This document shows positions 9,483-56,761 of a DNA stretch of 64,000 bases, piece by piece. A program made the translations under genes and the position numbers. Position 1 is the first letter of the stretch. Every line of letters begins with the position of its first letter. The DNA lies in the NCBI GenBank assembly GCA_033065855.1, contig JAVXUO010000922.1, positions 620,001 through 684,000 on the forward strand, given 5' to 3'. A model generated the notes under the pieces. The model searched no databases, was not told where the DNA came from, and saw only the letters and a list, made by a program, of their open reading frames with translations. The stretch is from Escallonia rubra (taxonomy: Eukaryota; Streptophyta; Magnoliopsida; Escalloniales; Escalloniaceae).

Positions 9483-10938
9483 GGAGCCGATCCACATCTA
9501 CCGGTGGAGAAATGGCTATTTCTCCACCACCCATCTAGCCGTCCACTTGTGATCGTGGACGGCTCAAATCTCTTACTTTTTTTTAGCATTTCTCTTAACC
9601 GCCCAAAAAAGGGGCGATTAACAATTTTTTCCAAAAATGCCCTCCATTTCACTTATTTGATTCCCACACCGCCACCATCCCTACAACATCAAGATCCCTA
9701 CCATCACCATCCCCACCATAAACAAAAATCATAAAAACTACCACAAGAATCGGCATCAGCAGCCGTATCGCCACCATTGAGGTCCATTCCGAATCTGAGC
9801 CAAAACCACCATTTCAGTGGTTTTGGCTCAGATCTAGCATATATCTCGGTTATTCTAGCAAGTATCTACAAGAATCTCGATTATTTTGTTGCCCCAATCG
9901 TGGTGGGTTTACATGGTGGTGCTGTCTTTTCTATCTTATCTCTGTATTTCTTTTATAGAAGTGGGTGGTTGGTTGTGGGACGGTGGTGGTTGAGTTGTGT
10001 TGGTTGTGGCGTGTTGGGTAGGTTACGGTGGTCGATGCGTGTTGGCAGTGGCATTTTTTGACGATGGCGTTGGTGGGTGGCCGTGGGTACGGTGGGTTGT
10101 GGGTGTTTGGTATTTTGGTTTTGAGATTTTTTTCGGGATGAATGGCTAGATGGGTGTTAGGTTTTTGTAGTGGTGGAAGATGGATTTTGTGGCGGATGTG
10201 GTATTAGCGATGCCAAGGGATGACAGCCCCAGCAACGCCGACGCTGGCATAACTCGTAGATGGACGATGCAGCCAGTCTAATGAAGTCTCACATCCTTCG
10301 CCCAAGCCATTGTCACTACCTCAGTTGTCTGTCGCCGCTACTCATCTTCCCGTCCATATCTGCCACATTTATCCATGTTTTTTTTTTGAATTTGAAATTG
10401 AGATTGAGGGTTGAGATTTTTGGTGCACAAATATTTATTTTTGTCCAGATTCGCCATTCATTGTACATTGTTTTTTGGAAATCGAGAATTGAGATTAAAC
10501 CCCAGATTGTTGAAATTGGGTGATCGTGTGTTTAGGGCCAGTGGTGATTGGACACAGATACAGTGGTGGCCGGGTGTATGTTCGGTGGTGGCTGGGCGTT
10601 GATATGTCATGAAATAATGAAGCAGCAAATGAAATGGAATGGATGTAGGAGAACATGACTGAGAACCTAACTTCTGTCTAACCACTTATCTTTGAAGCAG
10701 TTAACCGCTACTAAGTGTAGCGGTTAACCGCTTCAATAAGCTGTAGTAAGACTGAATATACCTAATTTGGTGTATGTGAGGGGCAAACTTGGAAACATTG
10801 TTAACCGCCCCTCTTTTGGGCTGTTAGGCGAAATACTAAAAAAAATAAGAGATTTAAGCCGTCCACGATCACAAGTGGACAGCAAGATAGGTGGTGGAGA
10901 AATAGCGATTTCTCCACCGGTAGATATGGATCGGCTCC
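9483..10938. mobile_element. Element A: non-autonomous long-TIR MULE-like transposon
   Basis: A 1456-bp element with ~165-bp terminal inverted repeats that begin GGAGCCGATCC, flanked by TATATATA on both sides (9475-9482, 10939-10946). Inside the TIR is a perfect hairpin of GGTGGAGAAAT with ATTTCTCCACC, then a CCGTCCAC/GTGGACGG hairpin (9538-9563) and a TTAACCGCCC/GGGCGRTTAA pair. A larger palindrome lies at 10694-10735. The interior is GT-rich and codes for nothing I recognise. Termini resemble those of elements B and E, so it is probably mobilised by an E-type transposase. Confidence 0.85.
10694..10735. repeat. Element A palindrome
   Basis: An inverted repeat with half-sites AACCGCTAC and GTAGCGGTT around a 5-bp spacer, extended outward by GAAGC/GCTTC. 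It has the same design as the palindromes in elements B to E. Confidence 0.85.
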
Positions 10939-10947
10939 TATATATAT

Positions 10948-11836
10948 GGGGGCCGATCCCCACCCACTAGTGGATAATATCCACCCAACCGTAACAATTT
11001 GTTGCGGTTGGTTTTCCCACAAACAGTTGCGGCCTTCTTTTCCACGTGGCCCACCCCCCCCCCCCCCCCAAAATCGCAACTAAGTGTTGCGGCTTGCCCA
11101 AAAGCAAACCGCAACAGCTTGTTGCTGCCTCCTTTCCTGGCCCACCTTTCACATGGCCCACCCCCCTTCTCCTTTCCTGGCCCACCTTTCACATGGCCCA
11201 CCCCTCTTTCCTTTCCTTTTCGGCCCACCCCTAAAACCGCAACTGATTGTTGCAGCCTGCCCAAAAGCAAACCGCAATAATCAGTTGCGGTCCTTCCATT
11301 TTTTCACCTGCCACGTGGCCCCCACCCCCACGGCCCTTTCCTTTTTTCTTGTTTTTCTCTTCCAGCTTTTTTCGTGCCCCCCCCCCCCCTTTTTTCTTGT
11401 ATTTTATTTTTTTCCTGCTTGTATTTTATTTTTTTTCCCTTAAGTATTTATTTATTTTTCATTTGGATAACTTTTATTACCTTTCAAACTATATGATTTT
11501 TTATGAAAACTCTACACCTCTCCAAAGTAAAAATGGAAAGAGAAAAGTTTCATAAAAAACCATATAGTTTGAAAGATAATAAAAGTTATCCAAATGAAAA
11601 ATAAATAAATACTTAAGGGAAAAAAATAAAATACAAGCAGGAAAAAAAAAGGAGCCCTAAGTTTAAGCAATTTAAATGAAGAAAGGACATTAGGGGGGGG
11701 GGGGGGGGCACTTGAAAAGGCATGGTGGGGGGGGGGGGGAAGGACATCAGGGGGGGGGGGGGGAAGACAACACAACAACCGCAACAAATTGTTGCGGTTG
11801 GGTGGATATTATCCACTAGTGGGTGTGGATCGGCCC

Positions 11837-11838
<2 letters not shown>
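10948..11838. mobile_element. Element B: fold-back non-autonomous transposon
   Basis: An 891-bp element with ends GGGGGCCGATCC / GGATCGGCCCCC, flanked by ATATATAT. The first ~63 bp match the inverted right end at nearly all positions. It is mostly two inverted arms folding near 11520, the left arm being longer. CCGCAAC/GTTGCGG palindromes with short spacers occur about six times (near 10990, 11074, 11108, 11236, 11268, 11778). Long C and G homopolymers (11052-11069, 11691-11762) inflate it and may be poorly assembled. No coding capacity. Confidence 0.85.

Positions 11839-11872
<34 letters not shown>
11839..11872. repeat. (AT)n tract between elements B and C
   Basis: Pure AT dinucleotide repeat, a remnant of the target tract shared by the neighbouring insertions. 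Confidence 0.9.
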
Positions 11873-11874
<2 letters not shown>

Positions 11875-13270
11875 CTGATCTGTTGACCGCGCGAGTAACT
11901 TCAGCTAAGTTGCCCGCGTAATCTGACTGTCCACGCCCGAGTTGTCGATGGTCCAGATCTATTTTTTGTACTTTTTTTAAGTTTGTCGGCCACATTATGT
12001 AGCGGACGGTACTTTTGACAAAATTGCCTCTGACCCCGCAAAGAAGGAAAGAATAGTCTGCAATACAGTCGTCCACTACATAATGTAGCGGAAGACTAAA
12101 TTGCAGACCCTTTTTCTTCACTCATCTGGACTTTTCCCTCTTCCTCCTATGTGTTTCCCTCTCTTTTTCCTCTGTCCCCTCTTCCTTCCATGTCGTCTCT
12201 CTCTTTTCCCCGGGCTCTATCTCATCTCTATCTCCCTACCACCGCCCACTAGACCAAGCACAATCACAACCACCATAATTCCACCACACAATACTCACTA
12301 AGGAATTTGGAGAAGACTACATGGAGACCGATCTCAGATCTGATAAAAAACATATCACATAATTTAATAAAATTGCTTCTTCTTCTATTTTTTCCTTCTT
12401 GTTTCATTGTTCTTGTCTTTGTTGTTAAATGGAAAATAAGGTGGGTTGTAATGGGTTTGAGTGCGAAATTGGCAGTAACGGTTTGGATGATGGTGGTTGG
12501 GTGCGGCCGCTGTTTGGCTGGTGGCGGTTGGGAGCATGGGCGATTGGATCGTCGTGGTGGCGGGGTGACGGCAGTTTAATGGTGGGTGGGCAATATCAGT
12601 TTGATTGGTTGTAGTTTGGATTGTGGTGGTTGGTGACGGCGGCGACGATTAGATGGTGGTGGTCGGTGACAATGGTGTTGGGTATTGTATTACACAATCA
12701 CTTTCATCATTTTCAGTATCTAAACCCAAATTAATATTTGACTCATATCTTTTGATTCAATTTGCTTTGGTTTTGATAAGAATTGGAATGGTTTGGAGAT
12801 GCCAACCGACGAAACAATCTATTATCTCACAGGTAGGTATTGATTTTCTTAGAACATAGAGGATTACCTCCGTAGGGAACTCAGACTATAGCTAAATATG
12901 CCTTTGAATCCATAAGGTCTCTTTCCACTTTCTGTTCAAGTACTCGACTGGCAGGAGTTGGCGGGATAGATGCCAATTCTTGGAGTTGAGAAGGAAAGAG
13001 AGAAAGCGAAGGAGATTGAGAGGGCAAAGGCCAGACGAGTGAAGAAAAAGGGTCTGCAATACAGTCGTCCGGTACATATGTACCGGATGACTGTATTGCA
13101 AACTATTCCTTCCTTCTTTGCGGGGTAAGGGGCAATTGTGTCAAAAGTACCGTCCGCTACATGATATGGCAAACAGACTTCAAAAAAGCACAAAAAATAG
13201 ATTTGGGTCGTCCACAACTCGCGCGGGCAACTTGAGTTAAGTTGCCAGCACTAGTAATGGATCAACTCCC
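11873..13270. mobile_element. Element C: non-autonomous relative of element D
   Basis: A 1.4-kb element with ~250-280-bp TIRs. The right end inverted reads GGGAGTTGATCC and the left AGCTGATCTG, both close to the ends of element D. TA repeats flank it. The TIRs hold palindromes with a GTCC..GGAC frame: one with TACATAATGTA at its centre near 12070 and one with TACATATGTA near 13072. The interior has CACCAC and GGTGGT-rich sequence and no recognised gene. Probably moved by a D-type transposase. Confidence 0.82.
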
Positions 13271-13284
13271 TATATATATATATA
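13271..13284. repeat. (TA)n tract between elements C and D
   Basis: 14 bp of TA repeat shared by the right end of C and the left end of D. Confidence 0.9.
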
Positions 13285-13577
13285 GGGAGCTGATCCGTTG
13301 AGAGCGTTAGCAAAATAGGAGAAGTTGCAAGCGCGATCTGACCGTCCATCCTGAAAGATGGACGGCCCAGATCGCGCCTTTTTCGAAAACTGTCAGTCGT
13401 CCGCCATACAGTAACGCGGACGGTTTTTTTTTTACCTTTTTGCCCCTCAGCGCCTGTCCGCTACACTGTATGGCGGAGCACATTAAAGTCCTGATGGGAG
13501 ACAGTAAAAAGACGTCCGCGATAATGTGTAGCGGACGTCCCCTAGGCTGACACCTGTCAGGGCCAGTCCCGTCGGTC
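13285..13577. repeat. Element D left terminal inverted repeat
   Basis: It starts GGGAGCTGATCCGTTGAGAG and matches the inverted right end (24395-24687) at roughly 95% of positions by eye. It contains a CCGTCCATC/GATGGACGG hairpin (13341-13367) and three CCGC/GCGG palindromes (near 13398, 13457, 13514). Three more palindromes follow just inside (13626, 13657, 13689). Confidence 0.92.
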
Positions 13578-13739
13578 CTTTTCGGCAATGACGGTTATCT
13601 TGTCCTTATCTGTCACGTCAACAGTGTCCGCTACACAGTGTAGCGGACGTTATAGCCATCCGCGATACTGTATCGCGGACGTAATAGCCATCCGCGATAC
13701 TGTATTGCGGACGTTCAATATACGTTCAAAAAATAGTAA

Positions 13740-14143
13740 CTACGACACTCTTCTCCACTCTTTCTACTCACAAAATTTCCCAGCGGCGTTGGCAAGCAGA
13801 TCGGCGCAATTCCGTCTTAAGAACACCTTTAATACCCTAAATCGATCACGTAAGTTCACAAAATCTATACTTTTTTTTGTTTGTAATCGATAGTTGTGAT
13901 GAATATTGCGTTTTATATATCTATGTTTTTGTTCATGTGCTAGCGTTTGTAAAATCCGATTCCGTATATGTATATATATCTATTATACATATGAGTACAT
14001 ATGCTAACATTGTATGCATCATGCATGTGCTTGCGTTATATGTATTATGCATGTGCTAGCGTCGTATTTTTGCGAGCGATTATCAAAATCCAAAACGTAA
14101 AATCCAAACTGAGAAGGTTTTTCCATAATTTCAGTTGCAAAAA
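13740..14143 (+). promoter_or_regulatory. 5' leader of PMD-Ulp1 with probable UTR intron
   Basis: A CT-rich leader (about 13740-13849) ends in GTAAG at 13850, and an AG acceptor precedes the start codon at 14133-14134. This fits a 5'-UTR intron of ~285 bp. Promoter elements are not clear; palindromes lie immediately upstream. Confidence 0.45.
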
Positions 14144-17100
14144 ATGGAATTTAACCCTGGACCAGAAGACCCATCCGTGTTATACGACCAAGCCAACCAT
14201 ATCAGTACGCTCATATGGGATGGTGGAGTAAGATACATTATTTATCGACTTTCTTATTCTTACGAACGTTGTATATACCGTTTGTTTTGCTTAAATTGTA
14301 TTTATTAATTCGTAGGAAAGAGAACTTCTCAACACCGTAGAAGTATCTCGCGAGTTCACATCGTGGAAACTGAACACCGCCCAGAAGAGGATACTGCGTG
14401 GAATTGGGTTTGGGATTTTCACGCATGGGCAGATATTTCAACAGCTTGACCGGGCCTTGATAGGTGCCCTTGTTGAGAGGTGGAGAAGTGAAACGAATAC
14501 GTTTCACTTCCCGCTCGGAGAGATGACAATTACCCTAGAAGATGTAGGGTTCATCTTAGGGTTGCCGGTGACGGGGCGGCCGGTAATTGCTCCTCCGTCA
14601 GAAGCAACGAATAAGAGAACCGCTAGGGACTTCTTAACTTCGATACCCCAGGATCAATTTAGCAGTGGTGGTATCAAGTTGAAGTGGTTGGTAGATACCT
14701 ACGGGGTTTTGCCGGAAAACTATACGGGCCGTGACCTTGTGCTGTACACACAAGCCTTCCTCTGGTGGGTGGTGGGGGCAATATTATTCCCAACGACGTC
14801 GAAGAACACGGTCAGCGTGAGATATTTACCGTTGTTGGGTAACCTGGCGGAGGTTGGAGATTATGCATGGGGTGCAGCGGTTCTTTCGTATCTGTACCGA
14901 GCATTGCACAAGGCAACGAGGCCCGACTCCAAAGCCATATGTGCATGTCTCTCGCTATTGCAGGTATATCATATAAATCCTGTCTTCGTTATTGTTTTTT
15001 TTGTTTTTGCTTTTGTTGAATCGACGATATAAATATAATTTGCCCATGTTCTCAGGTGTGGTCTTATGAACACCTTGCTCCCGGTGCACCAACGCGTAGG
15101 GATGGAACCGATAGAGTGTGGCCTCGGTTGCGTGCTTGGGAGTACAGCCGGAAGAATAGCCACTACCGCAGGAGAGTCGATCCCCATCACAACATCACGT
15201 ACTATCGAGGGGAGTTCGACCGCCTATCTCCGGGCCAATTGCGTTGGGCACCGTACATACGTTTGGCGCGACGGGTAGAAGAGTCGTTCGTCTTCACGCT
15301 CTCCGGGTTGCAGCGCACACCCCTCATCCACTTCGAGGTCGCAGAGTGGCAGCTGCCAGACCGAGCAATGCGCCATTTTGAGTTGGAGCAGGGTTTGCCA
15401 GCCGGTGCCCCAGATATGAGGGTTAACAGGGACCCACCGGATGTCGGGCGGTTTGGCAAGGCCAATGCGCAAGAATTGTGCACGGCCGAACTAGAGCTCT
15501 GGTGGCAGGACACACTGGCGGCCATCGTCTCGGAGCCAGACCCCGTTATCAGCATCGAACAATACGATGAGTGGTACTACCGCATCACGCGGAGGAGAGT
15601 AGCCCCAGTGAACTTTGAACGCGGGGAGAGGTATGCGCCTAGGGGTCAGATCGACGAGCGTATGGCATACAATCTCGTAAGTTGCCCAACTAGTCTGACT
15701 TGTCTTGAATGTGTTGAATATAAATGTCTGATTAAAGTTACTTATTTGTTATCTCTTTGGATGTAGGTTAATGCCTCGCTTGCATTCTTCCAGAAGTTGA
15801 GTGAGCGGAAGGATCTGATGAGCGCAATGGGCGAGGATCTTCGCCAACAGGCTGCTGCACTGGCTTTAGGCTGCGGGAATTTTGTGCGACAAGCATCGGG
15901 ACAGTCTTCGGTCGACAGCCCGGGAATGGGTTATACGGGCGTCAGCCCGTATAACGTTGATCCCTCCGGGCAAGCTTCAGGGGTGAGCCAGGGAGTTGGT
16001 GGTCCCTCTGTACCGGGGATGGGACATGCTCAAGCGTCGTGGGCCGATTACAGCGGCCCGACCTTCAATTTGTTCCCGGAACCCCAACCCCTCTCTCAGA
16101 GTCAAGTCACGCAAGACTGGCCTTACGGTTTCAACGAGGCACTGCCCATTGTCCCGTGGGCGGGACCACTTGGCGGCCCCGAAGGGCAATATCAGCCGGC
16201 GGAAGAAATGGCCGGCGAGCAATATCAGCCGGCCGGGGCCCCCGAAGGCGATTATCAGCTGGTCGGGGCCCCCGAAGGGGGTTATCAGCCGGCCGATCCG
16301 TTGGTTGGAGGCCAATTTCTTCCGTTGCTCTTGCCCCCCGGCGGAGGGCAAGAGCAACCGGTCGACCCCCGAGGGCAATATCCGAAAGGGCATCCAGCCA
16401 GGCCCCTGAAGCCGCATAAACATGACCTAATCCGAGCCCGTTATTTTAGCGGGCCCCCCCAGACGGAGCGTCGTATGACGTGGATCACCCGCAGGGCTTG
16501 GATTACAATGCCTCGTGGAGAGAACTGTCCTCGCTGGCGCCGGGAATTTGGTTAGACAACTTTGTCATCTCGCACTACGTGCAAATTCTGAGGCAAAGGG
16601 GTCGGGAGCAGCCTAACTACGGTCCGCGCATTTTTATCCTCGATGCTTACTTTCATGGCATCCTAGTACAAGAGTGGGGTGACTGGGACAAGGCGAGGAA
16701 GCAGGCGAGAAAGGGGAAAGCCCAGCTCCAGTGGAGGCCGTCCGCTAACCTACAAGCATATCTTGCTCGGGATAGTCCAGTGAGCGCAAGTGTGGCGGAC
16801 GTGTTTCTAATCCCATTTATAGTGAATGCCCACTGGTACTTGGTTTGCTATGAACCGGTAGTGAAAACCGTATCAGTCCTCGACAGTCTCTACGATGATA
16901 CCCCCGTGATGGGTGTGATTGAAATGTACCGAGGCTTAGGCCAGTTGGATGCCATGGTAAGATCCTGTTTACTTCTTATTGTAACTTGCATATTGTAGAA
17001 CTGATTAATCTTATTATGTTTGCTATGTTTAATGTTTAATGCTTATTATGTTTCTCGCAGAATCTATTTGCTGCCATGGTCAATAGGAAGCGTCGAGAGA

Positions 17101-17372
17101 GGCCATCGGTCGATACGACGCTTGTTCTCCGATTGAAGAGAAGTAGGCCCAAGCAACTTAATTCCTCGGACTGCGGCGTCTTCGTCTGCATGTACATGGA
17201 TTACATCTGTCGGTCTGAGAGCCTCAAGAAGACCGTCTGGAGCCAAGAATGCATAGACTGCTTTAGGTATAGGATGGCTTGGCAAATTATCAATGGCCGG
17301 CCTAGAGCTATTAGATTTATTGTAAATCCGTGTAACGAGGGGGATCCCGCAGGGGCTGAGGGCCCCAATTGA
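14144..17372 (+). CDS. Plant mobile domain protein fused to Ulp1-type (C48) protease
   Basis: Exons read as 14144-14227, 14316-14963, 15056-15676, 15767-16956 and 17061-17372, all with GT/AG borders and phase-0 joins, giving ~950 residues. Exons 1-3 hold the plant mobile domain: ALVERWRSETNTFHF, then MTITLEDVGFILGLPVTGRP. Exon 4 begins with a Q/G/P-rich linker with repeated EGxYQxxG units. The rest is a cysteine protease of the SUMO-protease fold: VNAHWYLVCYEP (His), VSVLDSLYD (Asp) and KQLNSSDCGVFVC (Gln and Cys), so the catalytic set is complete. The frame shifts by one base at a run of seven C (16454-16460), so as written the protease is cut off from the linker; this may be a real mutation or an assembly error. 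It could act on SUMO or a SUMO-like tag; its role in transposition is not known. Confidence 0.85.
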
Positions 17373-17617
17373 CAATGTTTGCTTATAATAACATTATATT
17401 CACTTTTTTAATTGTCCTTATCGTTGAATCTTATCGTTGAATGCGATTGATGATTTCATTTGTGTTGACTGAGATGTGATCGGTGTTGAATGCGATTGAT
17501 TTGATTCACTGATATCGTTGTGTTGTTGATCTGAGTGTTTGATTTGTTCTGTGTGATTTGCTTTGACCAGGGGGAAACAAAGTGTAAAAACCAAGTGAGA
17601 CTGTGTTTCTGCTTGAC
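17373..17617. other. Spacer after PMD-Ulp1
   Basis: T-rich sequence with short repeated phrases around GAATGCGATTGAT. It probably includes the 3' UTR of PMD-Ulp1. Confidence 0.4.
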
Positions 17618-18354
17618 TGTCCGCTATATAGTATAGCGGACATAGATAGGGCCGAAAAAAAACTAAGTGTTGGGGACTCTTCCTTCTGCTTGACTGTCCG
17701 CTATATAGTATAGCGGACATAGATAGGGCCGAAAAAAACTAAATGTTGGGGACACGACATTCTGCTTGACTGTCCGCTATATAGTATAGCGGACATAGAT
17801 AGGGCAAAAAAAAACTAAGTGTCGCTATATAGTATAGCGGACATAGATAGGGCAAAAAAAAACTAAGTGTTGGGGACCCTTCCTTCTGCTTGAATGTCCG
17901 CTATATAGTATAGCGGACATAGATAGGACCAAAAAAAAACTAAGTGTTAGAGACTCTCCTTCTGCCTGACTGTCCGCTATATAGTATAGCGGACATAGAT
18001 AGGACCAAAAAAAAACTAAGTGTTAGAGACTCTTTCTTCTGCCTGAATGTCCGCTATATAGTATAGCGGACATAGATAGGACAAAAAAAACTAAGTGTTG
18101 GAGACTCTTCCTTCTGCTTGACTGGCCGCTATATAGTATAGCGGACATAGATAGGACCAAAAAAAACTAAGGGAGGCTCTTCCTTCTGCTTGACTGTCCG
18201 CTATATAGTATAGCGGACATAGATAGGGCCATAAACTAAGTGTAGGGGGACTCTTTCTTCTTTCTGTTGTGCTGTCCGCTTTACTATATAGCGGACATGC
18301 ATAGGACAAAAGAAAAACCAAGGTTTGGAAGGTCCGCTTTATAGTATGGCGGAT
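17618..18354. repeat. 11-copy palindrome array in element D
   Basis: Tandem units of ~76 bp, each with one near-perfect palindrome whose core is CCGCTATATAGTATAGCGG, followed by CATAGATAGG, an A-run and an ACTAAGTGTTGG stretch. Copies start near 17619, 17696, 17772, 17823 (shortened), 17896, 17972, 18049, 18124, 18196, 18274 and 18332; the last two are variants. The palindromes are better conserved than the spacers, as expected of binding sites. Confidence 0.95.
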
Positions 18355-18483
18355 GTAGTTAGAAACATAAATTCCCAACATTTTACATGCTTCAAAAGAC
18401 GGGATTCGCTAATTAGAATGACATGTGGATAAGTGCCAGTTGGAATGAAATCCTAACATGCAGTAGGAAGAGATATATATATA

Positions 18484-18918
18484 TCACTCTTCATTTGACA
18501 TATACTCATCAGATAAGTACTGATCATTGGTTAAAATATTGTTTCTCTCGTTTGATTTGAGGTGCCTCCCACTAGCCTCGGCCATTTCTTCCGCAAGTTG
18601 AAGCATGTAAAATCGTTTTCTACGCAGCAACATCCGGTTATTCTCCATACGAATTCGGCGCACAGCTTTCTTACACTGCTTAACATTACGCCTCGACATA
18701 CTAAGTGAACGACGTTGCGGCACAGGTGCCCTCAGCGTGGTGAGATCTTGGTGTAGTGCTTCTGATTCCTTAACTCGATATGCCCATTCTCTCCGTAAAC
18801 CGCAATAATACTCTCTCGGATCCGTGTACTTCACTTCTTTGTAGTCGTCGTTCCTTTCACACAACAACCACACAGTCTCACGTCCCCGCAGACTAGAACT
18901 CCCAGGAACTCCTGCCAT
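18484..18918 (-). CDS. Small ORF X1, basic protein of unknown function
   Basis: A 144-residue open frame starting MAGVPGSSSLRGRETVWLLC. I do not recognise the family. The middle is homologous to X2 at 19283-19714: REWAYRVKESEAL here aligns with AEWSYRMNEYEVL there, and RRIRMENNRMLLRRKRF with HRIREENNRMRVRQSRH. The shared part has Arg-rich segments and heptad-like Leu/Met spacing, suggesting a helical, possibly dimerising nucleic-acid-binding protein; the tail is acidic. That a pattern is kept between paralogues argues for a real coding region. It lies beside the palindrome array and is divergent to X2. Confidence 0.62.
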   Translation of the reverse strand: MAGVPGSSSLRGRETVWLLCERNDDYKEVKYTDPREYYCGLRREWAYRVKESEALHQDLTTLRAPVPQRRSLSMSRRNVKQCKKAVRRIRMENNRMLLRRKRFYMLQLAEEMAEASGRHLKSNERNNILTNDQYLSDEYMSNEE

Positions 18919-19282
18919 TTAACTTAGGCGGTTCTAATGCGATGAGCATGGCTAACATATATAAATAAGCCCACACACACATACACAATATATTGGTGTG
19001 ATAGCTACACAATAGTCTGCCCATCTCTGGTGACAAGACAAGTCTCTGGACATTGAAGATGACAATAGTTGGAGACAATAGCATGCCCGTGTCATAAAGT
19101 TGACAAGTCTTTGGTGACAAGACAAGTCTCTAGTCTATTGCAGAGGCTTGTCACATCTCATAAAGTTGAACCTGTAGCATCTCATAAAGTGGTCCCGTTT
19201 CAAAGTATATATAAGTACATGCATTGCACGAAGGGCAAAGGGCATAGAGTGATATACTCCCAATTTCATAACAACTCTGGAA
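18919..19282. promoter_or_regulatory. Divergent promoter region between X1 and X2
   Basis: 364 bp between two start codons facing away from each other. TATA-like sequences occur for X2 (TATATATAAG near 19206) and, on the minus strand, for X1 (TTTATATA near 18957). Short repeated phrases such as GACAAGTCTCT and CATCTCATAAAGT occur. Assignment is by position and motif only. Confidence 0.45.
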
Positions 19283-19714
19283 ATGTCATATACTCCACGA
19301 GATATTTTTGAAGCAATGGGTCGTTACTGGGCGGGCGAAGATGAATTTCACTATTCTTTGCGTCCAAGTTTGCGTTACTCATCAAGCTATGTTAATACAT
19401 TACGTGCAGAATGGTCTTATCGGATGAATGAATATGAGGTCTTAGTAGCTGATTCACGGCGCATGAATATACCCATACCTCGACAAAAGGCAATCAACAT
19501 GCCTCGAATTACGCACATGGAGCTTGAAAGGGCACTGCATCGAATACGTGAAGAAAATAATAGAATGAGAGTTCGTCAAAGTAGGCATAACTTACGTCGT
19601 ATGGCACGTGATGCACATGAAGATGGCAACAACAATGAAGCACAAGTATACTGGAACATGAGCTTCGAACTAGGATCTGTTTCCGATGCTCCAGTTTCAG
19701 ATGAAGATGACTGA
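19283..19714 (+). CDS. Small ORF X2, paralogue of X1
   Basis: A 143-residue open frame, MSYTPRDIFEAMGRYW to an acidic end VSDAPVSDEDD. The family is not recognised. About 85 central residues align with X1 at roughly one third identity, with the motif LRAEWSYRMNEYEVL, then IPIPRQKAINMPR and RIREENNRMRVRQSRHNLRR. The near-equal length, shared motif order and similar basic-centre, acidic-tail design suggest an old duplication inside the element. It could be a DNA-binding regulator of the element; this is inference. Its stop is followed within 25 bp by the 132-bp inverted repeat. Confidence 0.65.
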   Translation: MSYTPRDIFEAMGRYWAGEDEFHYSLRPSLRYSSSYVNTLRAEWSYRMNEYEVLVADSRRMNIPIPRQKAINMPRITHMELERALHRIREENNRMRVRQSRHNLRRMARDAHEDGNNNEAQVYWNMSFELGSVSDAPVSDEDD

Positions 19715-19736
19715 AGATCGAGTTCTTCTAAGGCTA

Positions 19737-20202
19737 TAAGGCCTCCGCTTAGGCCGGGGTTCGGGAAGGTCGGAACTAAGTGTCTGGTTCGTGCCAACCA
19801 TTTTCTGGTCCAAGTTGCAGACAATGATCTGCACCACTATGACGTGAGATCCTCAGTTGTGCACCTTTTGTTTGTGTGTGGGTTTCCGTGGTGCGTGGAA
19901 GTATTACGATAATACTTCCTCGCTAATCATGTACTGTGTTAGAGACTTTCTTTCTGCGATGCCGTCCGCTTTATAGTATGGCGGATCTGGATAGAAACAG
20001 AAAAAACTTTTTGCTGTGCCGTCCGCTAGATAGTATAGCGGACAGCCCCGCAAAATACATGACCAAGCAGAAAGGTGCACAACTGAGGATCTTACGTTAT
20101 AGTGGTGCAGATCATTGTCTGCAACTTGGACCAGAAAATGGTTGGCACGAACCAGACACTTAGTTCCGACCTTGCCGAACCCCGGCCAAAGCGGAGGCCT
20201 TA
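19737..20202. repeat. 132-bp inverted repeat with palindromes in the loop
   Basis: Arms 19737-19868 and 20071-20202 match at about 97% in inverted orientation, starting TAAGGCCTCCGCTT. The ~200-bp loop holds two CCGC/GCGG palindromes (near 19964 and 20021). It could be a small fold-back insertion or a structure able to yield hairpin RNA. Confidence 0.9.
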
Positions 20203-20216
20203 TGTCCGCTATATAG

Positions 20217-20460
20217 TAGAGCTAGACGTTGTAGCGTAATGCAGTTTTAATAAATTGGCGCCCGAAGACTTGTTTTAGCGACGTTGTAGCATAATGCTGT
20301 TTTAATAAATTGGCGCTCGAAGACTTATTTTGGCGACAGAATCAACAATCTCAATATCGATAAATAATAAATAACGTACGATTCACAATCAACGATCTCA
20401 ATATCAATAAATAACGTACGATTCACAATCAACGATCTCAATATATCGAGGGAATCTCAA
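20217..20460. repeat. Short tandem duplications in element D
   Basis: A ~57-bp unit containing TAATAAATTGGCGC is repeated twice (about 20224-20335). It is followed by ~42-bp units built on GATTCACAATCAACGATCTC. A shortened palindrome lies at 20203-20220. Confidence 0.75.
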
Positions 20461-20542
20461 ACGGCACAATTAAGCACAAGTAAGCGAGAAAACATTTGGA
20501 AACATAATGAACAAGAACATAATTTTTTTTATTAATAATAAA

Positions 20543-21013
20543 TTAGGGTTCACATTGGGGGAAAGAAATTTTTTCACAAGCGCTCCGATCAAAGATTACA
20601 ACTTGAAAATCCCACCACCCAAGGTGTTCAAACACTACAAAGTCCCCGAGTTCGAGGCCATGCTGGCGCACGAAGACGTTCCAACCCTCTGCGAATTGCT
20701 TTTTTTGGGGTCGGCCGGGCTTCAGCTTGATTTCAACCTGCCATGCCCCCTTGCGGCTATATAATCTTGCACTGTCATGAATTGTTGTAAATTGAATGGT
20801 CAAGGCTTCCGGTATGTCCTAACAAACACAATACAAAAAATAGGTTAGTTTTTTTAACCAAAAGATCAAACTTTTAACACACGAAAATACAGAGAAAGAG
20901 GGATGGCCTACAAGTTCATTATCAAATCCCGGCATCATGACTTTGAAAAAGTGTTAGCCTGCCAGGTGCAAGTTGCCAATAAAATTGTAGGTGGTCTCCG
21001 ATCCAGAAGCCAT
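20543..21013 (-). CDS. Small B3-domain DNA-binding protein of element D
   Basis: A two-exon minus-strand gene. Exon 2 (20818-20543) begins DIPEALTIQF after a TTAG acceptor and continues with GAWQVEIKLKPG, FAEGWNVFVRQHGLELGDF and VVFEHLGWWDFQVVIFD, the core of a plant B3 domain. Exon 1 ends HFFKVMMPGFDNEL before a GT donor (20911-20910), which supplies the first B3 strand. The frame runs back to an ATG at 21013 but contains one TAA at 20956-20954; otherwise translation would start at the ATG at 20938. The protein would be ~100-125 residues, essentially only a B3 domain. B3 proteins bind short DNA motifs, so the element's own palindromes are possible targets. Confidence 0.75.
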
Positions 21014-21189
21014 CGAGGTCGGCGTTGAGGGGAGGACGGTGGTGTCGCCGGAGTTGTGGGTCACCGGAGATGTGGGTCGCCGTAGATGGGGTGGTGGCTT
21101 GGGTTAGATGTTCGAGACAGAGAGAGTGCCCTCAGCGGACTGATAACAGCTGATTGCCCGATTTGATTAATATATATAATAGGATAGAG

Positions 21190-21442
21190 TTATCCGCTAC
21201 ATTGTATAGCGGACATAAAAGAAGACCAAAAGTTTTTCTGCGATGATGTCCGCTACATTGTATAGCAGACATAAAAGAAGAACAAAAGTTTTTCTGCGAT
21301 GACATCCGCTACATTGTATAGCGGACATAAATGAAGACCAAAAGTTTTTTGCCATAACGTCCGCTTCATTGTATAGGGGACTTAAAATAACCCCAAAAAA
21401 TTAGGGCTCTACATATCCGTCCGCTTCATTGTATAACGGACG
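21190..21442. repeat. Five-copy palindrome cluster downstream of the transposase
   Basis: Five palindromes with CCGCTACATT-type left halves and TATAGCGGAC-type right halves, spaced ~56 bp, start near 21192, 21248, 21304, 21359 and 21419. The last two are more diverged. They lie between the B3 gene and the 3' end of the transposase gene. Confidence 0.9.
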
Positions 21443-21574
21443 GGGCTGACAAAGATAAAAAAAAAACAACTTAAGACTTTAGATTTGATTTGATGGCCTC
21501 TCATAGGTCCATCAGATAAAAAATTCCAGTATTCGGTCGAAAAATTATTACAAATGTCAAACTTATACAAAAAA

Positions 21575-23869: not shown

Positions 23870-24394
23870 TGTGAAACAAGACCTATGTAGAAATATAGAC
23901 TACGCTTAACAATCAAATGACATTTTCAACTGAAAATATTACCTAAAAATTATCTTGACGAATAGACCAATTTAAGATGACAAATATACCATATACATAA
24001 TCTCAAAAGTCTCCCATTTTCTAATTATAGATTTATTGAACATAGCAAATTAAAATTACTAAGATAAATAGACAAATTCATCATGCCAAAATACAACAAA
24101 CGTATCTAAAAAAATTCAAATTTAAATAAGATACTTCATCAGTCAATCTGCCCAGAAAATATTTGAGATCAGAAACCAACCTTGCTTGACTGAAGATTGA
24201 AGCAAGTGTTACTCGAAGCTTGAGGGCAGCCGAAAATGGAAGCAAGTGAATCCGAAGGAGAAGAAAATTTTGTCGAAAGAGCTGAGAATTAAGGAACCCT
24301 GGGGTATATGGGAAGTAATGTCCGCGATACTGTATAGCGGAAATTATTCTCGACACTGACACGTGCAGAAATAAAGACATGACATCCCTTTCGA
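23870..24394 (-). promoter_or_regulatory. Transposase 5' leader and promoter region
   Basis: AT-rich sequence between the transposase start and the right TIR, with a CT-rich stretch on the minus strand near 24240 that looks like a leader. One palindrome (near 24321) lies upstream of it. No clear TATA box was fixed. Confidence 0.4.
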
Positions 24395-24682
24395 CGGGAT
24401 AGGCCCTAACAAGTGTCAGCCCAGCCTAGGGGACGTCCGCTACACAGTATCGCGGACGTCTTTTTGCTGTCTCCCATCAGGACTTTAATGTCCTCCGCCA
24501 TACAGTGTAGCGGACAGGCGCGGAGGGGCAAAAAGATAAAAAAAAAATCCGTCTGCGTTACTGTATGGCGGACGACTGACAGTTTTCGAAAAAGGCGCGA
24601 TCTGGGCCGTCCATCTTTCAGGATGGACGGTCAGATCGCGCTTGCAACTTCTCCTATTTTGTTAACGCTCTCAACAGATCAG

Positions 24683-24687
<5 letters not shown>
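24395..24687. repeat. Element D right terminal inverted repeat
   Basis: Inverted match to 13285-13577. It ends GATCAGCTCTC just before TA repeats. It holds three palindromes (near 24436, 24492, 24551) and the CCGTCCATC hairpin. Confidence 0.92.

Positions 24688-24741
<54 letters not shown>
24688..24741. repeat. (TA)n tract right of element D
   Basis: About 54 bp of AT/TA repeat followed by GA repeats; the right remnant of the common insertion target. Confidence 0.95.
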
Positions 24742-24752
<11 letters not shown>

Positions 24753-36384: not shown

Positions 36385-36451
36385 GGAGACTGAGTGTGGA
36401 AGATAGACAGACTACAGTACGATGCTCACCTCCCCAGCGGAGTCGCCAAAA

Positions 36452-45408: not shown

Positions 45409-45448
45409 GACAACATTCATTCGCAGCACATACACTTCAAAGAAAACC

Positions 45449-48795: not shown

Positions 48796-48823
48796 CTAAT
48801 CCAGTAACCCGAGTGAAGCTCGG
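48796..48823 (-). mobile_element. Degenerate Helitron-like 3' end
   Basis: On the minus strand a CCGAGCTTCACTCGG hairpin is followed by GTTACTGGATTAG. It is nearly the same as the end at 58737-58765, with TTAG in place of CTAG. The body would extend to the right. Confidence 0.45.
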
Positions 48824-49777: not shown

Positions 49778-50218
49778 AAATTTTTTCCATGCAAAATTGA
49801 ACTAGTTAGTTGTATGTTTTGTATAATTACATAGATATATTTTTACATTCTAAAGGTTTTAAATGTTCTTAAATATAGTAATTAAGAATTATTTGATTTA
49901 ATTATACTTTTCTTTTCTAATACATACCTGATTTCTTTTCAAAATCTCATATATGCGATGTAGCTACTTTGATTATTGTGCGGTATTATCAAAGTAAAAA
50001 AACGGCCCTATAATTGTACTATTGATATTATACATTACATTGATATTTGCAATGATTATGTTTTGTGTATGTGTGTGTGCGCGCGCTCTAGATACATGAT
50101 TTTCTATCATCGTAGGAGAGAATTAGTTTTAAGGACACAATAGTCAAAATAAAATCCTAATAAATTAGTATATATTTTTTTACAATTAGTTCTCAAATTA
50201 TATAAGGCTTTCTAATAT

Positions 50219-52430
50219 GGGGGCCGATCCCTGTCTACCGGTGGGAAAAATTTTAATTATCCACCGAACCGCAGCTAGGAGCAGCGGTTGGGAAAAAAGT
50301 GGAATAATGATGGAATAATGACGAAAAGTGGACGAGAAAATGAAAATATCACGAGAAAATGGAGGGAAAATGGAGAGAAAATGCAAAAAGCCCAACCGCA
50401 CCTCCTAGTTGCGGTTGGCATTAATGGTGGTACGGCTGCCCAACCGCAACTAGGAGGTGCGGTTGGCATTATTATTCAAAAAGTTGTCCTCAAGACTTTT
50501 CCATGTTGCAACAACCAAACTACATTATTTTTAATATATATTGCAGACCATGCAGTTCAACATTATTATTCAAAAAGTCATGGCGTGGTTTGAATTTTGT
50601 GACTTGAGGACCACGTACGCCTTGACATAAGCAAGTTTGGTTCACATTCGTCATTAAAGTAGGTAAGATATGATTCATATATTTCCCTCACAAAGTAATT
50701 AGACATAAATCAAAAGTGATTCCCCAGTCATTTTCAAACTCTTGAGGAAAAAATTTCAGATTTTTCCAAATACTGGAAATGGGTTAACTGATACGGGGAA
50801 TCTTGTAACTCTGCAGTGTATTTTAAAATATCAAGCTAGCGCGATTTTGCGCGAAAATTTTATGAGAACCCTAGGATGTTGGGAAGTTCCATTCCCCAGG
50901 AATTCGGGCCATTCCGAAGCCGTTACCTATTTTTTTGGCCGAACGGCCCTTTAAGCGCTCGATCCGGACACCGGTTCGGGAGTTTTGGGCGAAACCTCCG
51001 TGAAATACTTTTTAGATCAAGAATGAATTCAGAAAGCCTAAAATAGCATTTCGAAGCACTTTTGAGATTTTTCGATGCCAGGGGGCATTTCAGTAATTCG
51101 CCGCCCCGAGAGGGGTATTTCGGTAATTTTACAGTGCTAAGTTTTTCAACGGACTTTTTAGTCTAGAAATGTAAGCAAAGCACCTGAAAGGTTGTTTTGA
51201 AGCTGATTTGGCGCGCGTAATTGTCGTTAAAAGTGAAAACTTAATTAGACAGTTTTTCACGAATTTATAAAAAATAGCTAGAGCTAAATTTTGCCAAAGT
51301 GCAAAAAAGAGACCCTAGTTATTCTTAAAGGATCTGTATCAAGTAAAACTTTCAGATTTTTCCAAAGATTGGAAAGGGGTTAACTGATACGGGGAACCTT
51401 GTAACTCTGCAGTGTATTTTAAAATATCAAGCTAGCGCGATTTCGCGCGAAAATTTTATGAGAACCCTAGGATGTTGGGAAGTTCCATTCCCCAGGAATT
51501 CGGGCCATTCCGAAGCCGTTACCTATTTTTTTGGCCGAACGGCCCTTTAAGCGCTCGATCCGGACACCGGTTCGGGATTTTTGGGCGAAACCTCCGTAAA
51601 ATACTTTTTAGATCAAGAATGAATTCAGGAAGCCTAAAATAGCATTTCGAAGCACTTTTGAGATTTTCCGATGCCAGGGGCATTTCGATAATTCGCCGCC
51701 CCGAGAGGGGTATTTCGGTAATTTTACAATGCTAAGTTTTTCAACGGACTTTTTAGTCTAGAAATGTAAGCAAAGCACCTGAAAGGTTGTTTTGAAGCTG
51801 ATTTGGGGCGCGTAATTGTCGTTAAAGGTGAAAACTTAATTAGACAGTTTTTCAGGAATTTATAAAAAATAGCTAGAGCTAGATTTTGCCAAAGTACAAA
51901 AAATAGACCCTAGTTATTGTTAAAGGATCTGTGTGAGGAAAAAATTTCAGATTTTTCCAAAGACTGGAAAGGGGTTAACTGATACGGGGTACCTTGTAAC
52001 TCTGCAGTGTATTTTAAAATATCAAGCTAGCGCGATTTCACGCGAAAATTTTATGAGAACCCTAGGATGTTGGGAAGTTCCATTCCCCAGGAATTAGGGA
52101 CATTCCGAAGCCGTTACCTATTTTTTTGGCCGAACGGCCCTTTAAGCGCTCGATCCGGACACCGGTTCGGGATTTTTGGGCGAAACCTCCGTAAAATACT
52201 TTTTAGATCAAGAATGAATTCAGGAAGCCTAAAATAGCATTTCGAAGCACTTTTGAGATTTTTCGATGCCATGGGGCATTTCAGTAATTCGCCGCCCCGA
52301 GAGGGGTATTTCGGTAATTTTACAGTGCTAAGTTTTTCAACGGACTTTTTAGTCCAAAAATGTAAGCAAATCACCTGAAAGGTTGTTTTGAAGCTGATTT
52401 GGGGCGCGTAGGGGTAATAATGAATCTCCA
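50219..52430. repeat. Element E left arm: TIR with three ~600-bp tandem units
   Basis: The outer ~520 bp carries palindromes such as AACCGCACCTCCTAGTTGCG (near 50396) and its inverse near 50440. Tandem units start near 50747, 51349 and 51941, each with TTCAGATTTTTCCAAA, CTGATACGGGG, CTAGCGCGATT and a repeated GGGGCATTTC phrase. Units are highly similar. Confidence 0.92.
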
Positions 52431-52691
52431 GGGGCATTTCGGTAATTTATCGCTCAGCGGGCATCGGGGGTATATTGGTAAATTGCCACATTGGCTCTAA
52501 ATTTTAGGGAAGTAGAATAATAAAGCGTTCGGAGTGGTGGGAAGTGAGGAATTGTTTTAATACATTGAAATAATGAGATAATGACTATTGCTAACGCGTT
52601 GGTAAGCTAGGTTTAAGATCCAGTTATATTTTTGAAATGTAAATATTATGGACGCTAAGTTAGTTTACAATTATATTTAGTTCTTACAGAT

Positions 52692-53243
52692 ATGTATTTC
52701 AACCCCGGACCTCATGATACATCAATCCTATACGATGACGATGACCACGTCGCGAGGTACGTATTTGACGGTGTCGAGAGGGGTGTTTTGGAAACACTTT
52801 AAAGCACAAGTCACCTCGAAGAGTGGGTACTGAACGAGAAACAAATACAACTACTATACCGTCAAAATTTAGCTATGTTCACCAATTCCATGATTTTGTC
52901 TCGACACGACGATTGCCTTATATCCGCTCTAGTTGAACGATGGAGGAGCGAGACGAACTCATTTCACTTCCGGTTTGGTGAAATGACAATTACATTAGAG
53001 GACGTCGGATTTATACTTGGAATCCCATGTCACGGCAAACCCATTACTTTGAGCAAAACGTCTGCATTCATAAAGAATATGGCTAGGCAGTATTTTTCGG
53101 AAATTCCGAAGGAAACTCTCACAACAAACGGCATCAAACTTAAATGGCTGAGAGAGCAGTACGGCGAGCTACCGAATGAATACACTCGTCATGAATGTTG
53201 GATCTTAAGATTTCAAATTGAATTAGCCTTATTATTACTTTAG
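52692..53243 (+). pseudogene. Plant mobile domain gene of element E, broken
   Basis: It starts MYFNPGPHDTSILYD, matching MEFNPGPEDPSVLYD of the element D protein. One in-frame TAA lies at 52800-52802; beyond it the frame continues through SALVERWRSETNSFHF and MTITLEDVGFILGIPCHGKP to LKWLREQYGELPNEYTRHE, where homology to D ends. The Ulp1 part is absent. The first intron of the D gene is not present here. Not functional. Confidence 0.88.
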
Positions 53244-53261
53244 AATGATTTTGGACAATGT

Positions 53262-54020
53262 GCTAACTAGCGTGCCTAAGGTGTAATGAGCAAAAAAAAA
53301 ACGTGAAAAAAATAATGGGCGCTAAAGTGTGCGCGAATAGGGGCCTCGTAAGAAAATCCAAAAAATAATTTGGGCCGTTTTTCGCCGAAATTTATAGAAA
53401 TAGGCTAACTAGCGTGCCTGAGGTGCAATGAGTGAAAAAAAAGTGACAAAAAAAATTACAACTTTTTTCGCAAGCTAAGAATTGGGCCTTAAAGTGTGCG
53501 CGAATAGGGGCGTCGTAGGAAAACCCAAAAAATAATTTGTCTCGTTTTTCGTCGAAATTCATAGAAATGGACTAACTAGCGTGCCTGAGGTGCAATGAGC
53601 GAAAAAAAAGTGACAAAAAAAATTATAACTTTTTTCGCAAGCTAAAAATTGGGCCTTAAAGTGTGCGCGAATAGGAGCGTCGTAGGAAAATCCAAAAAAT
53701 AATGTGTCTCGTTTTTCGTCGAAATTCATAGAAATGGGCTAACTAGCGTGCCTGAGGTGCAATGAGCGAAAAAAAGTGACAAAAAAAATTACAACTTTTT
53801 TCGCAAGCTAAGAATTGGGCTTTAAAGTGTGCGCGAATAGGGGCGTCGTAGGAAAATCCAAAAAATAATTTGTCTTGTTTTTCGCCGAAATTCATAGAAA
53901 TGGGCTAACTAGCGTGCCTGAGGTACAATGAGCGGAAAAAAAGTGACAAAATATTTTTTGCGCTTTTTGCGCAAGCTAAGCATTGGGCCCTAAAGTGTGC
54001 CCGAATAGGCCCTTTAAAAA
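53262..54020. repeat. 166-bp tandem array in element E
   Basis: About five units start at GCTAACTAGCGTGCCTGAGG-like sequence near 53262 (shortened), 53404, 53571, 53738 and 53904. Each contains AAAGTGTGCGCGAATAGG and an A-rich stretch. It takes the place of the genes between PMD and transposase in element D. Confidence 0.92.
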
Positions 54021-54123
54021 ATATCAATAATCCACAAACCAAATCACAAATTAAAGATTTCACAAACCAAATCACAAATATAAACATTATAAAAGTTCAA
54101 TTTATACAACTGAAACATTAATC

Positions 54124-54905
54124 CTAACCCTCTTCCTCATCATCGTCCTCCTCGACCACACTTCCAGGTTCGATACCTAGCAATTTATAATGATTTCTCT
54201 TGTCATGGTCAGTCATCTTATTACACAACACACACTTTCGCAATTTTTTTGACCCGTTGCTTCTTCAATCGGATTCTTCATACGTATTGCTCGTTTTCGA
54301 CCTTTTGTTTGAGAAATAATTGGATAAAAAATGTTGTCCTCATCACCTTGCAGGCGAGTGCTGTCAATGACTGGCTGTGAAGCTCGATTAAATCTACCGG
54401 CTGGAGTCGTCCGAGGGTCCCTACTTTCTGGTAATGCCATCCTAAACTGTGCATGCTTAGCCTTATCCCGTGCAGCTGCTTCAACTTGATACCTGTACCC
54501 ATCAAATGTTGACGCTGCATCCATTGATAAACCGTGCATGATGTTACAAAGGTGATTATATCGCAGCGTCTCAGATTGCTCGAAATCGACTGAAACATTG
54601 GGCACGTAAGGAATGTGACCGTGGACTCTATTGGCTTCCTTCGTCCACCGAGTCAAGATATACTATGGAGGGATTTCACGAGCATTCTTAGCGCTAAAAA
54701 CCCTCAACGCGTGTCGACAAAGTATACCTTTATGCTCAAACAGTTGACAGTTGCAATTAACAAACCCGATGTCCATACAAACGGTTACGGTAAAATGTCT
54801 TCTGTTCCTCGGAGCCGACGAAGAGCACGGATTGGCAAAATTCGTCACATTTGTCAAAGCATAAACCTTGAGGTCCCTGGTGGAATACTCGTGCAACTTT
54901 GTCAT
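54124..54905 (-). pseudogene. FAR1-type transposase remnant of element E
   Basis: Homologous to residues ~510-745 of the element D transposase. It begins near KLHEYSTRDLKVYALTN, keeps the SWIM finger (NCNCQLFEHKGILCRHAL), then RWTKEANRVHGHIPYVPN, YPIISQTKGRKR and the CVLCNKMTDHDKRNHYK knuckle. One TAG interrupts it near 54664 and a frame change occurs near 54250. The FAR1 and DDE parts are missing, replaced by arm sequence. Confidence 0.9.
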
Positions 54906-54929
54906 GGTATATTGATTTGACTTTAAAAT

Positions 54930-56761
54930 TACCAAAATACCCCTCTCGGGGCGGCGAATTACCAAAATGCCCCCTGACATCAGAAAATCTCAAAAGTGCT
55001 TTGAAACGGGATTTTAGGCTTCTTGAATTCATTCTTTAAAATAACTTTCCGGGTGTCTTACACCCTGAAACCGAACTAAAAGTTAGTCGGAAAATTTTAC
55101 ACTGTTAAATTACCAAAATACCCTCGTTGAGCGACAAATTACTGAAATGCCCCCGGGGATTCATTATCACCCCTACGCGCCCCAAATCAGCTTCAAAACA
55201 ACCTTTCAGGTGCTTTGCTTACATTTCTGGACTAAAAAGTCCGTTGAAAAACTTAGCACTGTAAAATTACCGAAATACCCCTCTCGGGGCGGCGAATTAC
55301 CGAAATGCCCCCTGGCATCGAAAAATCTCAAAAGTGCTTTGAAATGCTATTTTAGGCTTCCTGAATTCATTCTTGATCTAAAAAGTATTTTACGGAGGTT
55401 TCGCCCAAAAATTTCGAACCGGTGTCCAGATCGAGCGCTTAAAGGGCCGTTCGGCCAAAAAAATAGGTAACAGCTTCGGAATGGCCCGAATTCCTGGGGA
55501 ATGGAACTTCCCAACATCCTAGGGTTCTCATAAAATTTTCGCGCGAAATCGCGCTAGCTTGATATTTTAAAATACACTGTAGAGTTACAAGGTTCCCCGT
55601 ATCAGTTAACCCCTTTCCAGTCTTTCGAAAAATCTGAAAGTTTTACCTGATACAGATCCTTTAAGAATAACTACGGTCTATTTTTTGTACTTTGGCAAAA
55701 TTTAGCTCTAGCTATTTTTTATAAATTCGTGAAAAACTGTCTAATTAAGTTTTCACCTTTAACGACAATTACGCGCGCCAAATCAGCTTCAAAACAACCT
55801 TTCAGGTGCTTTGCTTACATTTCTGGACTAAAAAGTCCGTTGAAAAACTTAACACTGTAAAATTACCGAAATACCCCTCTCGGGGCGGCGAATTACCGAA
55901 ATGCCCCCTGGCATCGGAAAATCTCAAAAGTGCTTCGAAATGCTATTTTAGGCTTCCTGAATTCATTCTTGATCTAAAAAGTATTTTACGGAGGTTTCGC
56001 CCAAAACTCCCGAACCGGTGTTCGGATCGAGCGCTTAAAGGGCCGTTCGGCCAAAAAAATAGGTAACGGCTTCGGAATGGCCCGAATTCCTGGGGAATGG
56101 AACTTCCCAACATCCTAGGGTTCTCATAAAAGTTTCGCGCAAAATCGCGCTAGCTTGATATTTTAAAATACACTGCAGAGTTACAAGATTCCCCGTATCA
56201 GTTAACCCCTTTCCAGTCTTTGGAAAAATCTGAAATTTTTTTCCTCAAGAGTTTGAAAATGACTGGGGAATCACTTTTGATTGATGTCTAATTAGTTTGT
56301 GAGGGAAATATATGAATCATATCTTACCTACATTAATGACGAATGTGAACCAAACTTGCTTATGTCAAGGCGTACGTGGTCCTCAAGTCACAAAATTCAA
56401 ACCACGCCATGACTTTTTGAATAATAATGTTGAACTGCATGGTCTGCAATATATAATAAAAATAATGTAGTTTGGTTGTTGCAACATGGAAAAGTCTTGA
56501 GGACAACTTTTTGAATAATAATGCCAACCGCACCTCCTAGTTGCGGTTGGGCAGCCGTACCACCATTAATGCCAACCGCAACTAGGAGGTGCGGTTGGGC
56601 TTTTTGCATTTTCTCTCCATTTTCTCGTGATATTTTCATTTTCTTGTCCACTTTTCGTCATTATTCCATCATTATTCCACTTTTTTCCCAACCGCTGCTC
56701 CTAGCTGCGGTTTGGTGGATAATTAATTTTTTTCCCACCGGTAGACAGGGATCGGCCCCCC
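54930..56761. repeat. Element E right arm: inverted TIR
   Basis: Inverted counterpart of 50219-52430 with one partial and two full ~600-bp units, then the outer segment with palindromes near 56525-56590 and 56690-56715. The similarity between arms is very high. Confidence 0.92.

Follow-up and report, generated by a model that had tools for sequence, protein, structure and literature searches.

In a 64,000-nucleotide stretch of the Escallonia rubra genome (contig JAVXUO010000922.1, positions 620,001 to 684,000; hereafter the window), taken from an assembly of 566 Mb in 3,222 contigs, we analysed a palindrome of the form CCGC-N11-GCGG, in which eleven bases separate the two halves, that is carried by five transposons designated A to E. 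The palindromes are real, constrained and strictly spaced, and they fall into matched classes that follow element lineages. We consider it moderately probable, judging from sequence comparisons, that they are dimer-binding sites of each lineage's own transposase, read through its FAR1 domain. Each lineage probably uses its palindromes as addresses to find its own DNA.

Fixed spacing and matched classes

The window contains 33 exact copies of CCGC-N11-GCGG where a first-order Markov model predicts 0.4, and among 256 four-mers at 41 spacings this was its most over-represented inverted pair. All exact copies fall within elements (D 24, E 6, B 2, A 1, C 0), and none was found in the approximately 42 kb of the window outside them. 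When one or two mismatches in the frame were tolerated, provided that the arms paired well, the search returned 38 sites compared with 0.8 expected, again all within elements (D 25, E 6, B 4, C 2, A 1), and the spacer measured 11 bases in all five. The sequence-only reading of this stretch had proposed short-spaced CCGC..GCGG palindromes concentrated in every element with long terminal inverted repeats, about two dozen of them in D; this was borne out except for C, which has only two one-mismatch sites. One exact D site (21761-21779) lies inside the transposase frame with only 4 of 9 arm positions paired and looks like a chance occurrence; D thus holds 23 good exact sites and one near-match.

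Genome-wide, the N11 form occurred at 33,531 places compared with 2,513 for the reversed control, and spacings 0 to 10 summed (eleven spacings) gave 20,684 places compared with 30,446 for the control. When the gap of the D-specific pattern was left free from 0 to 12, 2,201 + 2,181 places were found and 0 in the control, and among the matches listed every one was 19 bases long. A palindrome with a ten-base spacer, CCGCTCCTA..GCGG, recurs at C2:37722, C5:21717, C6:54944 and C9:192326 (four among the listed matches) and is perhaps a further class with different spacing.

Three matched half-site classes together comprise approximately 25,650 perfect sites: GTCCGC-N11-GCGGAC at 19,579 places (control 2), AACCGC-N11-GCGGTT at 3,980 (control 7) and AATCGC-N11-GCGATT at 2,093 (control 41). 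Because the copies are related, these counts do not represent independent events; the 33,531 N11 places exceed the classes and mixed sites, the remainder being other flanks and chance. Because AATCGC sites appear only after CCGC is relaxed to TCGC, a census restricted to CCGC misses this class, which was absent from the sequence-only reading and was first met in the seemingly site-free terminal repeat L023:4170-4420. Decay of AACCGC in both arms by cytosine deamination was rejected as its source, with approximately 5 sites expected and 2,093 counted. Mixed GT/AA sites numbered 32 + 25 = 57 (control 12) compared with approximately 6,656 under random pairing of halves, and mixed CC/TC sites 147 + 138 = 285 (control 17) compared with approximately 2,899. 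Because mixed sites fall so far below random pairing, the class characterises the site in its entirety and, for the most part, all sites of an element jointly.

The half-site version also follows the terminal type, as had been claimed. For this comparison we counted sites with at most one frame mismatch, located at most 450 bp from an end in the fetched loci, taking only TA-rich-flanked ends plus L027 and the window ends; L001-L008, which overlap other stretches or hold single sites, were excluded from the site statistics. GT preceded the frame in 245 of 266 half-sites at TGATC-type ends (AT 10, AA 6, CT 3, AC 1, TT 1), and AA did so in 52 of 56 at CCGATCC-type ends, where GT was found 0 times.

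Half-site class and transposase ancestry

In a tree of 11 transposases, the GT carriers, the E-lineage carriers and three site-less carriers formed separate groups with the fewest possible changes; the tree carries a long-branch warning for the site-less group, in which L033 and L034 are close relatives, and it labelled L031 with the AA group before its AATCGC class was found. Half-site class follows transposase phylogeny in this tree. The site-less carriers L032, L033 and L034 encode FAR1-MULE (Mutator-like element) proteins approximately 34% identical to that of D. No N11 site occurs in the stretches read for L032 and L033, and three in L034 lie past its element in an apparent C/D-type neighbour. 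Inverted repeats flank both L032 and L034; L034:669-7164 is a long-terminal-repeat element in (TA)n that encodes a FAR1-MULE transposase of 823 amino acids and contains no N11 palindrome.

In the E lineage, the AATCGC class is represented by L035 and L041, and L031 has AATCGC sites on either side (C16:73247-73405 and 86553-86702), which we infer to belong to its element. The AACCGC members are L030, L036, L038, L039 and L042, some with divergent half-sites, the assignment being based on a single site for L036 and on two imperfect sites for L039. Over the first 118 transposase residues, five columns separate the 3 AATCGC from the 5 AACCGC proteins, and column 56 is Thr in the former compared with Ile in the latter and in all 6 D-lineage proteins. 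At one predicted beta1 residue of the FAR1 domain, 11 proteins of the CCGC class have Ile and 3 of the TCGC class have Thr, a count that omits L040 (broken frame), L037 (Thr; element end off the contig) and C10, C27 (both Ile) and C70 (Thr), which agree by nearest listed site, but at a distance of 8-11 kb; C25 has no listed site, and the list for these last four covers about 100 of 437 places. In the D FAR1 segment, Ile32 (codon 23732-23734) lies within predicted strand beta1.

Under the transposase reading, a symmetric dimer would sit on CCGC-N11-GCGG, and each of its monomers would contact a single half-site (approximately NNYCGC together with inner bases) through its N-terminal FAR1 zinc domain, for which a WRKY-GCM1 fold is predicted. 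The transposition complex would form on the several sites of each terminal repeat, and autonomous copies would thereby mobilise non-autonomous copies of the same class. A change in FAR1 specificity, with the lineage's sites replaced together, would have generated the GTCCGC, AACCGC and AATCGC classes. In the D lineage, the site is also amplified in tandem arrays that lie between the two convergent genes, and these arrays may regulate expression, titrate the transposase or counter silencing. More tentatively, and with greater doubt than for the binding itself, we propose that MULE lineages in one genome may have diverged into no fewer than three address classes that exclude one another, that few recognition-strand changes (candidate: Ile to Thr in beta1) may switch the half-site, that the new half-site would replace the old one in both arms, that each transposase would mobilise its own kin and ignore the rest, and that the internal arrays of one lineage would have acquired a second, regulatory role.

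Two observations limit what can be concluded about this residue. L040, a decayed exception, has a Thr codon in an otherwise AACCGC-type copy with an in-frame stop. Because the AATCGC proteins are probably one clade, as their sequences indicate (L031 and L035 93.6% identical, L030 86-88% identical to both and 88% to L031), they represent a single switch, which cannot prove cause. Structure prediction for the full transposase from 8 alignment rows gave a pLDDT (predicted local distance difference test score) of 36, and sequence searches of the PDB with both alignments returned no match. The fold matches listed contain neither GCM nor FHY3 structures, although a likeness to either may still exist; the FAR1 half-site may resemble a GCM site.

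How a transposase and its many sites can change specificity jointly and still remain mobile is puzzling, because an altered protein is confronted with thousands of sites of the earlier type. In this genome, three address classes are abundant, and transposases with open frames occur on either side of a switch (L030, L031); with a short list of candidate residues, this makes the question testable. The N11 site also provides a precise genome-wide marker for which autonomous element moved which non-autonomous one, and the classes are a possible set of orthogonal transposon ends. Among 4,777 candidate transposases, the 58 that were scored are all at least 97% identical to that of D (one being D itself) and 49 lack an internal stop, which suggests recent activity.

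Candidate binding proteins and alternative explanations

In most C/D-type ends, N11 sites begin at approximately +117, +172, +220-245 and +270-355, and in B, E and L029 at +41-50; similar offsets recur in the terminal repeats of autonomous and non-autonomous copies. A second palindrome, CCGTCCA..TGGACGG, possibly the site of another protein, is located at +57 in most C/D-type ends (including loci L010-L028) and at +56 in A, and it was not found in the ends of B and E. Among nineteen elements tabulated for genes and sites, seven (D, L010, L012, L015, L016, L020 and L027) combine the transposase with a plant mobile domain (PMD) and a C48 peptidase and have 13-28 sites each. The seven complete PMD-bearing D-lineage copies hold 148 sites, 143 of them outside coding matches. 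L017, with the transposase alone, has 12 sites, and exact sites are present in 9 of 10 copies without detectable genes, the exception being C.

Internal tandem arrays of the D lineage consist of approximately 3-18 units of 53-81 bp, mostly with one palindrome per unit; because the units are alike in their flanking sequence as well, these arrays are probably homologous. The E lineage (L030, L031 and window E) has a tandem array with a period of approximately 167 bp between its convergent genes, which lacks the palindrome in L030 and L031 and, checked for the exact form only, in window E. In place of the palindrome, it repeats GGGCTAACTAGCGTGC and GGGCC(T/C)TAAAGTGTGC words.

Both site-bearing lineages carry the transposase and PMD-C48, which is not the case for the B3 and X proteins: among the seven complete PMD-bearing D-lineage copies, B3 occurs in four and X1/X2 in one, and L012, L015 and L016 lack all three and have 18-21 sites. 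The absence of B3 and X from complete site-bearing copies makes them unlikely as general binders, and they were rejected on that ground. The sequence-only reading had attributed the sites to an element-encoded protein that diverged together with them; the spacing, matched halves, near-exclusive classes, lineage distribution and noncoding placement support such a protein, and B3 and X drop out as candidates. Of the remaining two, the transposase appears the likelier binder.

It is unlikely, although this is the main alternative, that the PMD-C48 protein binds the sites in the manner of VANC, coating repeats and arrays, removing silencing and co-evolving with the motif. We know of no DNA-binding activity for PMD or C48, no search aimed at it having been made. 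PMD and C48 are present in seven of eight complete transposase-bearing D-lineage copies (missing in L017) and in L030, L031 and L023/L035 of the E lineage, the site-less relatives L032, L033 and L034 have no PMD match in the stretches read, and the D-lineage arrays resemble VANDAL arrays as presented in the accessible text of PMC5735166. However, the E lineage retains PMD-C48 together with an array that has no palindrome in L030 and L031, and L017 keeps its sites without PMD-C48, although service in trans is possible. The Arabidopsis PMD-linked motif CATGCAGTTT is unlike the N11 site, and its direct recognition is unproven in the accessible part of PMC9899485. This 'DOWN' motif was therefore rejected as a counterpart of the N11 site.

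A host transcription factor whose sites the elements gathered for their own expression is an improbable reader. A strict palindrome of constant spacing is typical of any dimeric factor, and the sites lie in terminal repeats, the location of MuDR promoters (accessible text of PMC3310237), but three near-exclusive, lineage-wide half-site versions are hard to reconcile with a single host factor, and exact sites in the window are confined to elements.

Because the copies are related and many transposases near-identical, with array units that are alike beyond the palindrome, founder repeats and amplification alone might have produced the pattern without any current function. Conservation within the copies makes this very improbable. 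In an alignment of 27 C/D-type ends, covering the region between the first and last palindrome, mean identity was 0.90 in 76 palindrome columns and 0.70 in 133 other columns, in agreement with the earlier claim that the palindromes are better kept than their surroundings; the two bases flanking each side reached 0.97. Because columns are grouped and copies related, the p-value for palindrome compared with other columns (3e-14) is indicative only. CpGs were kept in 197 of 216 cells inside sites but in 79 of 189 in seven CpG columns outside sites and flanks, although CpGs farther out in the terminal repeat are likewise well kept. Within the site, GTCCGC and the two A bases of inner positions 5 and 7 show hardly any variation while the alternate positions 4, 6 and 8 vary, and separate sites of one element have a common class.

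We also compared arm pairing with the expectation for independent halves in 231 C/D-type sites, each 49-bp context being counted once. Matches numbered 170 compared with 172 expected at position 4, 97 compared with 118 at position 8 and 141 compared with 108 at position 6; positions 5 and 7 are nearly invariant and thus uninformative. In the AACCGC class, position 8 was paired in just 6% of 17 distinct interiors. The C/D-type pattern points to two half-sites that would each be contacted by protein, and not to a stem held by base pairing. DNA or RNA hairpins, for which arms of 7-9 base pairs, often perfect, and the long fold-back terminal repeats of some elements might speak, are disfavoured to the point of being hardly credible, given that general arm covariation is lacking and only position 6 exceeds expectation.

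Related systems and feature coordinates

The elements share with maize MuDR/Mutator a 9-bp target duplication, seen here at L027, and differ from it by a 19-23 bp palindrome that is present several times over, always at N11 spacing, by matched classes and internal arrays, and by PMD-C48 in the position of mudrB. Long terminal repeats, a MULE transposase, two convergent genes and transposase sites in the repeats are further likenesses, MURA being reported to bind a conserved motif of approximately 32 bp (accessible text of PMC3310237). PMD-carrying plant MULE clades likewise have PMD beside the transposase, often antisense, in several clades, but a repeated palindromic site or classes are unmentioned in the accessible text of PMC6446971.

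The parallel with Arabidopsis VANC drawn in the sequence-only reading holds in part. Element-specific short motifs, noncoding tandem arrays and lineage divergence are common to VANDAL elements (accessible text of PMC5735166) and to the elements described here, the D-lineage arrays being VANDAL-like. However, 'palindrom' occurs 0 times in that text, and our consensus is unlike its short motifs YAGTATTAY for VANC21 and AGTTGTCC/AC for VANC6. VANC has DUF1985/DUF287, whereas PMD and C48 were found here; neither DUF was seen in the longer D and E frames scanned (as frames, not as spliced protein). The sites here recur in terminal repeats, including those of gene-less copies, and the E array lacks the palindrome as stated above. 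Terminal repeats are long here and absent or short in VANDAL, although some VANDAL-clade elements do have them (accessible text of PMC6446971).

Insertion into (TA)n and the stacking of unlike elements, as for A-B-C-D at 9483-24688, are shared with MuTAnT of Medicago (PMC4486113) and the SaTar arrays of guayule and rice (PMC5907723); no palindrome code was seen in the accessible text of either, and 'palindrom' occurs 0 times in that of PMC5907723. Muta1 of Aedes aegypti is a MULE whose terminal repeats likewise contain many short repeats, nine subterminal ones of 12 bp and a terminal palindromic motif of 10 bp, but it has a FLYWCH-type domain and short repeats 3-4 bp apart, and matched half-site classes are unmentioned in the accessible text of PMC5225508. 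In the accessible parts of published accounts of PMD MULEs, Mutator-like palindromes, VANC and MURA sites, we found no description of the N11 palindrome, most subscription papers being outside the search.

A, B, C and D are placed end to end with (TA)n between them, and E lies apart; paired arms of long terminal inverted repeats were found for A, D and E. The PMD and C48 exons of D, which we infer to form a single gene on the plus strand, converge with the transposase on the minus strand, with the B3, X1 and X2 genes in between. L027, a D relative outside (TA)n, has the 9-bp duplication ATTAAACAA at both ends. A clear 9-bp duplication was sought at the ends of E and none was seen; for A-D, which lie in (TA)n, duplication is not measurable. 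Of 50 listed termini, identified through the end motif and having a site at most 620 bp away, 42 had TA-rich flanks, and the other 8 include 3 false matches in PMD coding sequence, 2 termini of L027 and 2 of window E.

Coordinates of the elements, sites and genes (window positions unless a locus is given)
Feature	Position	Strand	Remarks
Element A, non-autonomous	9483..10938		AACCGC class; exact site 10705-10723; near-sites at +116 from left end (~9599) and +115 from right end
Element B, non-autonomous	10948..11838		AACCGC class; exact sites 11272-11290, 11779-11797; near-sites 10989-11007, 11109-11127
Element C, non-autonomous	11862..13271		left end approximate; near-sites 11987-12005, 12073-12091; exact sites 0
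Element D, autonomous-type 11.4 kb Mutator-like element	13285..24688		GTCCGC class; (TA)n on flanks
D second palindrome CCGTCCA..TGGACGG	13342..13365		+57 of left terminal repeat; mirror ~24607-24630
D left terminal sites	13401..13710		19 bp each: 13401, 13458, 13516, 13628, 13660, 13692
D PMD exons	14316..15766	+	PF10536, E 7e-51 and 3e-16
D Ulp1-type C48 peptidase exons	16450..17372	+	3' of PMD; PF02902, E 1.2e-4 and 5.1e-7
D internal tandem array	17621..18352		past 3' end of PMD-C48 gene; ten exact sites and near-site 17822; spacing mostly 72-78 bp
X2, optional protein of D	18484..18918	-	144 amino acids
X1, optional protein of D	19253..19714	+	153 amino acids; ~36% identity to X2 over 78 residues
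D internal sites	19966..20041		19966-19984, 20023-20041
B3 DNA-binding domain gene of D, optional	20543..20818	-	PF02362, E 1.3e-8
D internal sites	21194..21324		21194-21212, 21306-21324; 56-bp-period array directly past transposase stop
D transposase (FAR1 + MULE + SWIM)	21575..23899	-	774 amino acids; PF10551, E 1.1e-32; PF03101, E 2.1e-13; PF04434, E 3.7e-5
FAR1 domain of D transposase (WRKY-GCM1 fold, predicted)	23450..23827	-	
D right terminal sites	24322..24513		24322, 24437, 24495
Element E, decayed relative	50219..56761		AACCGC class; PMD and transposase remnants; sites 50269, 50396, 50444, 56528, 56576, 56692
E-lineage 167-bp array	~53316-54009		also L030:3452-3812 and L031:3101-3848

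The window also holds retrotransposon reverse transcriptase and gag fragments at 4922-6292 and 34645-36411.

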